From NCBI GenBank assembly GCA_029267995.1, contig JAJUHG010000004.1:1-33156 (forward strand): a DNA stretch of 33,156 nucleotides, written 5' to 3'. Shown here in pieces: positions 10,632 through 13,326 of the stretch. The number at the start of each line of letters is the position of its first letter. Position 1 is the stretch's first letter. Position numbers and translations under genes: made by a program. The notes under the pieces are model-generated. The model saw only the letters and a program-made list of their open reading frames with translations. It did not search any database and was not told where the DNA came from. Source of the DNA: Micrococcales bacterium (GTDB lineage: Bacteria; Actinomycetota; Actinomycetes; Actinomycetales; Cellulomonadaceae).

Positions 10632-10637
10632 TACGGT
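10632..10637 (+). promoter_or_regulatory. putative -10 (TACGGT) for leader-DAHP synthase transcript
   Basis: TACGGT 7 nt upstream of leader-peptide GTG 10645; possible -35 GTGACC about 19 nt upstream. Confidence 0.5.
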
Positions 10638-10644
10638 GCTGCGC

Positions 10645-10713
10645 GTGACGCACCTTCGTGGCTATTGGCGCTTGACGCAGGCTCCTGGTGGGAGCCCGCG
10701 GGTGCACGCCTGA
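10645..10713 (+). CDS. putative 22-aa leader peptide (VTHLRGYWRLTQAPGGSPRVHA)
   Basis: Short ORF with adjacent Tyr-Trp codons between a -10-like box and a terminator hairpin, upstream of an aromatic biosynthesis gene. Confidence 0.6.
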   Translation: MTHLRGYWRLTQAPGGSPRVHA

Positions 10714-10737
10714 CCCCACGAACCCCACCGGAGCCCC

Positions 10738-10767
10738 AGGCCTTGGACGCAGCAGCGTCCGGGGCCT
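10738..10767 (+). terminator. putative attenuator terminator hairpin
   Basis: AGGCCTTGGACGC (10738-10750), loop AGCA, GCGTCCGGGGCCT (10755-10767); 13-bp stem with two T-G wobbles, followed by TCGTCGTTC. Confidence 0.6.
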
Positions 10768-10841
10768 TCGTCGTTCAGACGGGCGCCGGCCGAGCGGTGC
10801 GGGGTCCGTCGAGGCGAACCGACCCGACCAGGAGAACCCCG

Positions 10842-11963
10842 ATGTCCCGCACGACCGCCACATCCACCCGCACGCCCGAGGCCGCGCGCGCAGAGATCCA
10901 GGCTCCCGTGAGCGACCTGCGCATCCGCGCCCTCGACCCCCTGCCCGCCCCCGCGGACCTGCTCGCCGAGCTGCCCCTGGGGACCGCCCGCGGTGACCTC
11001 GTCGCGCAGTCCCGGCGCGAGGTGCGCGAGGTCCTCACGGGCGAGGACGACCGCCTCCTGGTGATCGTGGGCCCGTGCTCGGTGCACGACCCCGAGGCTG
11101 CGCTCGACTACGCCCGCCGGCTCGCCGAGGTCGCGCACGCGCGCGCCGAGGAGCTGTGCGTCGTCATGCGCGTGTACTTCGAGAAGCCGCGCACCACGGT
11201 CGGGTGGAAGGGACTCGTCAACGACCCCCACCTCGACGGCTCGCACGACGTGCTCACCGGGCTCCGGCTCGCGCGCGAGGTGCTGCTCGGGGTGCTCGAC
11301 GCGGGGGTGCCCGCCGCGTGCGAGTTCCTCGAGCCCACGAGCCCGCAGTACCTCGCCGACGCCGTGACGTGGGGCGCGATCGGGGCGCGCAACTCCGAGA
11401 GCCAGGTGCACCGCCAGCTCGCCTCGGGGCTCTCGATGCCCGTGGGCTTCAAGAACACGACCGACGGCGACGTCGGGGCGGCCGTCGACGCGTGCGTCGC
11501 GGCCGCGGCCGAGCACGTGTTCTTCGGTGCGGACTCCCGCGGCCGGGCCGCCGCGGTCGCGACGAGGGGCAACGCCGATTGCCACGTGATCCTGCGCGGG
11601 GGACGCTCGGGACCCAACTACGGTGCCGAGGTGGTGGCCCGCACCCTTGAGCTCGCACAGCGGGCGGGGCTCGACGGTGCAGCGGCGCACGGCGTGATCG
11701 TCGACGCCTCGCACGGCAACTCGGGCAAGGACCACGTGCGCCAGGCCGAGGTCGTGCGCGAGCTCGCCGCCCGGCTCGCGGCGGGGGAGCAGGGCATCAC
11801 GGGGCTCATGCTCGAGAGCTTCCTCGTGGCCGGCGCCCAGGCTCCCGCGCCGAGCGGGCTCGTCTACGGGCAGTCCGTGACGGACAAGTGCATGGACTGG
11901 GGCACGACCGCCGAGCTCCTCGACGAGCTCGCCGCGGCGGTGCGGGCGCGGCGCACGCACTAG
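10842..11963 (+). CDS. aroG: 3-deoxy-7-phosphoheptulonate (DAHP) synthase, class I
   Basis: LLVIVGPCSVHDPEAALDYA, MRVYFEKPRTTVGWKGLVNDP, GLRLAREVLL, GFKNTTDGDV, VDASHGNSGKDH, GLMLESFLV; RBS AGGAG before ATG 10842. Confidence 0.95.
   Translation: MSRTTATSTRTPEAARAEIQAPVSDLRIRALDPLPAPADLLAELPLGTARGDLVAQSRREVREVLTGEDDRLLVIVGPCSVHDPEAALDYARRLAEVAHARAEELCVVMRVYFEKPRTTVGWKGLVNDPHLDGSHDVLTGLRLAREVLLGVLDAGVPAACEFLEPTSPQYLADAVTWGAIGARNSESQVHRQLASGLSMPVGFKNTTDGDVGAAVDACVAAAAEHVFFGADSRGRAAAVATRGNADCHVILRGGRSGPNYGAEVVARTLELAQRAGLDGAAAHGVIVDASHGNSGKDHVRQAEVVRELAARLAAGEQGITGLMLESFLVAGAQAPAPSGLVYGQSVTDKCMDWGTTAELLDELAAAVRARRTH

Positions 11964-13250: not shown

Positions 13251-13326
<76 letters not shown>

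Follow-up and report, generated by a model that had tools for sequence, protein, structure and literature searches.

A probable aroR-type attenuator ahead of the class I DAHP synthase gene of a Cellulomonadaceae bacterium, and related RNA elements in the class Actinomycetes

The window analysed here is a stretch of 33,156 nucleotides from a Micrococcales bacterium of the family Cellulomonadaceae, in which a gene for a class I DAHP synthase (3-deoxy-7-phosphoheptulonate synthase) of the aroF/G/H type (PF00793, 5.8e-81; TIGR00034, 1.3e-139) occupies positions 10842-11960 of the forward strand. The putative attenuator region lies directly upstream of the ATG of this gene (10842), on the same strand. 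A -10 box, TACGGT (10632-10637), stands 7 nt ahead of a GTG (10645), which is the spacing of a leaderless promoter, and the GTG opens a leader ORF of 22 codons, VTHLRGYWRLTQAPGGSPRVHA (10645-10713, with the TGA at 10711-10713), that has homologous leaders in relatives. The presumed regulatory codons of this ORF, TAT (Tyr) and TGG (Trp), are adjacent (10663-10668) and fall in a core that reads WYWRF across the family; they are followed by a TTG (Leu, 10672-10674) where almost every relative, the sister species L083 among them, has TTT (Phe). Segment A, GGCTCCTGGTGGG (10680-10692), encodes the APGG part of the leader and begins 8 nt past the initial base of the last aromatic-codon position. Segment B, GGAGCC (10691-10696), could form a small local hairpin with GGCTCC at 10680-10685, and segment C, CCCACCGGAGCC (10724-10735), which includes a second GGAGCC (10730-10735), can form 12 bp with segment A as GGCTCC(U)GGUGGG against CCCACCGGAGCC, with U10686 bulged. 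A terminator hairpin, T (10738-10767, arms AGGCCTTGGACGC and GCGTCCGGGGCCT), is followed by TTCGTCGTT. All of the items listed in the original prediction (the box, the ORF, TAT TGG, GGCTCC, both copies of GGAGCC, the hairpin and the ATG) are present at these positions, and the second of its two pairings, 10680-10692 with 10724-10735, is real, with its 12 bp and one bulge. Upstream, a glutamine amidotransferase gene (NF005743; 9887-10621) stops 23 nt ahead of the leader GTG, so that its end and the putative promoter of the attenuator overlap. The sole tRNA in the window is a tRNA-Pro (CGG) at 13251-13326 on the reverse strand.

Searches of Rfam at curated and permissive thresholds, T-box and Trp_leader included, found no family for the region upstream of aroF; the one match at gathering score was a tRNA elsewhere, and the sub-threshold matches were irrelevant. 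A terminator scan of the window also returned nothing, the T criterion of the scan being too strict for this clade. The T tract behind the hairpin, which had been counted as weak, is indeed poor in the window, but this is no oddity, as TTCGTCGTT is the usual form of the tail in the family; true T tracts occur in mycobacterial and corynebacterial members (TTTTCGTTTTT, TTTTTTG).

The promoter spacing recurs with great regularity. In a scan that did not require the box, TAnnnT was found 6-8 nt before the start codon in 113 of 114 leader matches, the exception being a chance ORF, whereas the same motif at the same spacing preceded 16 of 1710 other ATG or GTG triplets in these regions (0.9%). Transcription would accordingly be expected to start at or beside the leader GTG and to be leaderless; if the transcript begins at the GTG, the ORF has no space for a Shine-Dalgarno site.

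Among 200 genomes of the family to which the window belongs, 102 yielded a class I DAHP synthase gene, and the upstream DNA was read at 90 places. In 84 of these 90 the gene is preceded by a leader whose core is WYWRFT.APGGA.RA.A or closely similar; the other six are two extra paralogues in one genome, two genes truncated at the end of a contig and a further two from fragmentary assemblies. Isoptericola and Puerhibacterium are the nearest relatives with a name. In a class-wide sample outside family f24, leaders with clustered aromatic codons precede 40 of 43 class I genes, whereas in f24 no leader was found ahead of any of the 23 class I genes read. The core differs among lineages: it is YWRF in Mycobacterium, Gordonia, Williamsia, Tsukamurella and Dietzia, YFWF in Rhodococcus, Nocardia and Amycolatopsis, YPYF in family f27 (probably Micromonosporaceae), WYAYF in families f2 and f5, and, among the loci read, FYF only in a genus that appears to be Corynebacterium. 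A search of 396 genomes with the core pattern gave 16 matches, 14 of which are leaders of this type. Leader, promoter spacing, helix and hairpin are kept together in about 150-180 related loci, and the arrangement observed in the window was confirmed to be far above chance. These comparative data support what was originally predicted before DAHP synthase, namely attenuation by a ribosome on a leaderless leader with aromatic codons. In the window species itself, the first Trp codon and the Phe codon (TTT to TTG) have been lost and one Tyr and one Trp codon remain; L083 retains the Phe codon.

The codons in the leaders are far from those of the genes that follow. In 163 distinct leaders, Tyr is written TAT 177 times and TAC six times, and Phe TTT 171 times and TTC 22 times, whereas the bodies of 82 aroF genes contain 440 TAC against three TAT and 574 TTC against 16 TTT. 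The aroF gene of the window has five TAC and no TAT, yet the Tyr codon of its leader is TAT. In short, the sensing codons are the synonymous codons that are nearly absent from aroF genes. This preference for TAT and TTT may be explained by slower wobble reading, or else by a constraint on the RNA. The near-exclusive use of the two codons suggests that poorly read synonymous codons were picked as sensors.

Across the relatives, the helix between segment A (GGCUCCGGGUGG, which encodes APGG) and segment C (CCACCCGGAGCC) measures 6-16 bp, commonly 9-12 bp. The commonest start of segment A, found in 33 of 61 helices, is the one seen in the window, 8 nt past the initial base of the last aromatic codon; given the usual ribosome footprint, a ribosome stalled on the preceding codons would have its leading edge near there. 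Segment C in turn ends close to the hairpin T, with a gap of 0-8 nt in 71 of 75 sequences (median 2 nt); in the window the gap is 2 nt, and the A:C helix is not extendable into T. In an alignment of 56 sequences, double changes were counted in 15 cells of A:C, where shuffles gave 4.0 (0/500). Related sequences, which the alignments contain, can by themselves exceed one of the controls of this count, so that the weight rests on a swap test and on independent lineages. In the swap test, the A of a sequence scored higher with its own C than with that from other lineage groups for 70 of 75 sequences, and both sides of the helix have been replaced as pairs (GGCTCTGGGTGG/CCACCCAGAGCC, AAGGCTTGCGG/CCGCAAGCCTT, GGCTTCGGC/GCCGAAGCC, GTTGGCTCTGGAGG/CCTTCAGAGCCAAC and GTGCTGGT/GCCAGCAC). 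Shuffling of single sequences is a weak test of A:C alone, because chance pairing is already good in the GC-rich downstream DNA with its terminator hairpin; tests by fixed register, by column and by swap were used instead. The hairpin T has an energy of about -15 to -31 kcal/mol and covaries in nearly all T-type members, nine of its ten pairs being changed on both sides in the 56-sequence alignment. The original prediction was to fall if relatives did not conserve the YW codons and the stems, and it withstood this check. In the local hairpin A:B, pairing is possible in 87% of cells without any covariation beyond shuffles, and we rejected it as a covarying element.

The two pairings of segment A had been taken as a choice between antiterminator and terminator, and this part of the prediction is not supported. 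In the window, A:C shares no arm of T, and both form: P(A:C) is about 1 together with a P(T) of 0.99 when a ribosome is placed at the Tyr, Trp or stop codon, and P(T) is 0.99 also without a ribosome. Consensus folds within lineages likewise contain both A:C and T, and with RNAalifold on the segments from A to the 5' arm of T we could not find any antiterminator overlapping T. A:C and T are no thermodynamic competitors in the window, and base pairing alone fails to link stalling to read-through. Because the two helices fold together, the classical switch is not encoded by the sequence.

Some relatives carry, after T, a segment D, which is a second copy of A (GCTCCGG-like) complementary to C; L045, L081, L169 and L179 are examples. 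It is enriched in relatives (27 of 75 at p<=0.05), and in the window it is not significant (p 0.78) and was rejected as a part. Leaders of the form YFWFS.PAPGG without the hairpin T were found at nine loci (L019, L024, L026, L032, L034, L036, L043, L262 and L265) of the Rhodococcus, Nocardia and Amycolatopsis type, which have a C:D hairpin near the gene instead; in several of them, a GGGTCGG-like stretch that immediately precedes the Shine-Dalgarno site is a possible partner for D. This layout suggests a different, possibly translational, output at these loci.

A covariance model built from 56 rows scores the window, itself one of the training rows, at 88.9 bits (E = 3e-18). There was no other convincing match in the window's genome (the best other match was read and has no such leader), and no leader of the aroR type lies ahead of the class II DAHP synthase gene of the same genome. 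A search of the class recovered the known sites and added new ones, apart from ten weak matches (L312 and L321-L329) that have no leader of this kind; in a phylum-wide sample, matches fell within the class Actinomycetes only. In family f24, the same RNA stands ahead of chorismate mutase, either alone or fused to a DAHP-synthase-like domain (domain searches covered few representatives, the remainder being judged by their common C-terminal sequence). The elements ahead of chorismate mutase (L306-L308, L311, L313, L315, L316, L318-L320 and L330-L336) come mostly from f24 genomes without a class I DAHP synthase match, and the f24 leaders, such as MNRSFAFIEPAPGSRS, MGRYSSFTRPAPGGPVA and VDRRYFGFTPPAPDEPVGAP, contain Phe, often Tyr and never Trp. 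A second copy, with the leader MRTFLDFRKPARVAGRVET, precedes chorismate mutase in one f27 genome, and in one f9 genome tyrS (TIGR00234) is preceded by a copy whose leader, VLTRRVYPNGSGV, contains a single Tyr. DAHP synthase leaders carry Trp, Tyr and Phe codons. The leader codons thus follow the target, since chorismate mutase serves only the synthesis of Phe and Tyr, and Tyr is the sole amino acid that TyrS uses.

The closest known system is the aroR leader of Corynebacterium glutamicum, which stands ahead of aroF, contains Phe-Tyr-Phe and responds to Phe, according to the accounts of Neshat et al. 2014 in PMC11802643, PMC7356990 and PMC4046766. The two systems have in common a short leader with an aromatic cluster before a class I DAHP synthase, with ribosome stalling reported for C. 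glutamicum, and they differ in the core, which is Phe-Tyr-Phe there and Tyr-Trp in the window, ancestrally Trp-Tyr-Trp-Arg-Phe. The Phe response of C. glutamicum cannot simply be presumed for the window leader, which has no Phe codons. Twelve of our loci (L188-L199), from the genus that appears to be Corynebacterium, have M...RFYF leaders, and so the published core, with the same -10 spacing, core position, A/C helix and terminator as the window, and the first 12 bases of the gene at L188 are those of the published C. glutamicum aroF primer. The RNA architecture is homologous, with the A:C helix adjoining T in the window and in the corynebacterial loci, and the class of the window element is settled by its homology to the aroR-aroF attenuator of Corynebacterium.

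Other attenuators resemble the window element in part. The trpL attenuators of Corynebacterium and Streptomyces (PMC1262725, PMC8079986) also have an actinobacterial leader peptide, sometimes leaderless, and a GC-rich terminator, but their regulatory codons are for Trp only and precede trp genes, their antiterminator and terminator are described with common complementary triples, and the printed trpL1 and trpL2 peptides are without the WYWRF.APGG core. In C. glutamicum ilvBNC (PMC11857589), the leader is again at the transcript end and the antiterminator adjoins the terminator; the hairpins there share a GCC trinucleotide, whereas none is shared in the window, and the amino acids and genes are different. 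The uORFC-13-1 of Acholeplasma (PMC8632094) is a candidate uORF attenuator before the same enzyme, aroF, but belongs to another phylum, has another motif and is described only from Acholeplasma and environmental sequences. In the trp-type attenuator of E. coli, the antiterminator excludes the terminator through a common strand; in the window the two helices have no strand in common. Surveys of actinobacterial attenuators describe trp, ilv, leu, cys and some tRNA-ligase leaders (PMC1262725, PMC8079986), and in these surveys and the literature searched there is no DAHP synthase leader outside Corynebacterium, although Neshat et al. 2014 might mention relatives. Burkholderiales / beta-proteobacteria (L049, L054, L064, L074 and L077) have leaders such as MRFAASFYFAYFWFS and MQVRSAFYFYFWFSVPGG ahead of DAHP synthase, with TAnnnT 7-8 nt before the ATG. 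The terminator there is CCGCCGG...CCGGCGGTTTTTT-like, and its 5' arm is able to base-pair with a GGCGG of the leader (a classical overlap); it seems that a separate attenuator precedes the gene for this enzyme in these bacteria.

On the strength of the conserved and similarly placed parts, of covariation in A:C and T, of codon choice and of the fit between leader codons and target gene, a ribosome-mediated transcription attenuator of the aroR type very probably controls the class I DAHP synthase gene of the window. RNA polymerase would begin at or beside the GTG, and a ribosome would load on the 5' end of the transcript. With charged tRNA-Tyr and tRNA-Trp plentiful, the ribosome would cross segment A to the stop codon, T would form and transcription would end before aroF. 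With either tRNA scarce, it would stall on TAT or on TGG, its leading edge lying where segment A starts; A would then pair with C and bring the stalled ribosome right up to the base of T, where the docked ribosome would block or delay the folding of T and let RNA polymerase enter aroF. The ancestral Phe codon is so placed that a ribosome on it would cover the beginning of A, and stalling at Phe may act differently. We infer the direction of control by analogy with C. glutamicum aroR-aroF (PMC11802643), and the way in which A:C would act on T from the layout: docking was proposed because A begins at the edge of the stalled ribosome and C ends at T. Docking is the mechanism we favour for this single step, yet it is tentative, and somewhat less likely than not to be right. 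Sensing of tRNA-Tyr and tRNA-Trp, as originally predicted, is a reasonable inference for the window species, whereas the ancestral leader would have sensed Phe too. Against the model, the window leader has just one Tyr and one Trp, and the conserved Phe codon is gone. Codon identity is, moreover, no proof of the dominant amino acid, Tyr limitation being reportedly without effect in C. glutamicum despite the Tyr codon of its leader (PMC11802643).

The docking step, and only that step, has a rival in classical attenuation at the helix boundary, of the kind put forward for C. glutamicum ilvBNC, in which branch migration between A:C and T would fray the base of T. The near contact of C with T in 71 of the 75 relatives would suit this mechanism, and ilvBNC, with an adjacent antiterminator and terminator that have only GCC in common, is a precedent (PMC11857589); yet the window and most relatives have no common base, the window has its 2-nt gap and the consensus folds hold both helices, and we regard the mechanism as rather unlikely. 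It is still less probable that the leader is translated and regulatory but that Rho or translation coupling gives the control, with A:C hiding or exposing a C-rich Rho site or keeping ribosomes near aroF. The stretch from the leader stop to C is C-rich in many members, and the Rhodococcus, Nocardia and Amycolatopsis members lack T and have C:D near the gene, but T is strong and covarying in nearly all T-type members, and the tails are U-rich in mycobacterial and corynebacterial loci. Arrest by the nascent peptide WYWRFT.APGG, by which the ribosome would stall on a free aromatic compound and not through codon starvation, would fit a peptide conservation that reaches beyond the aromatic residues to APGG; this is, however, accounted for by APGG being RNA segment A, whose bases co-vary with C, and as the aromatic residues vary with lineage and target while the TAT and TTT codons are kept, decoding seems to be what matters and peptide arrest is very improbable. 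Finally, a chance ORF with merely a constitutive promoter and a leaky terminator, to which a 22-codon leader with one Tyr and one Trp codon might point, is refuted by the conservation, the covariation and the codon bias seen across the class, except in the event that only the window's copy has decayed, and hardly deserves credence.

The attenuator reported for Corynebacterium in the literature searched is extended here to a probable regulator of aromatic synthesis across the class, including mycobacterial, Micromonospora-like and Cellulomonas-like lineages. It is possible, though on balance doubtful, that these elements form one leaderless family in which a helix docks the ribosome at T and the codons have been retuned, to Trp, Tyr and Phe for DAHP synthase, to Phe and Tyr for chorismate mutase and to Tyr for tyrS. 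One RNA with varied regulatory codons and targets constitutes a natural series, in which the rule that codon identity sets the signal is directly testable. If the device still works, the window species should sense Tyr and Trp, and not Phe, through its aroF leader.
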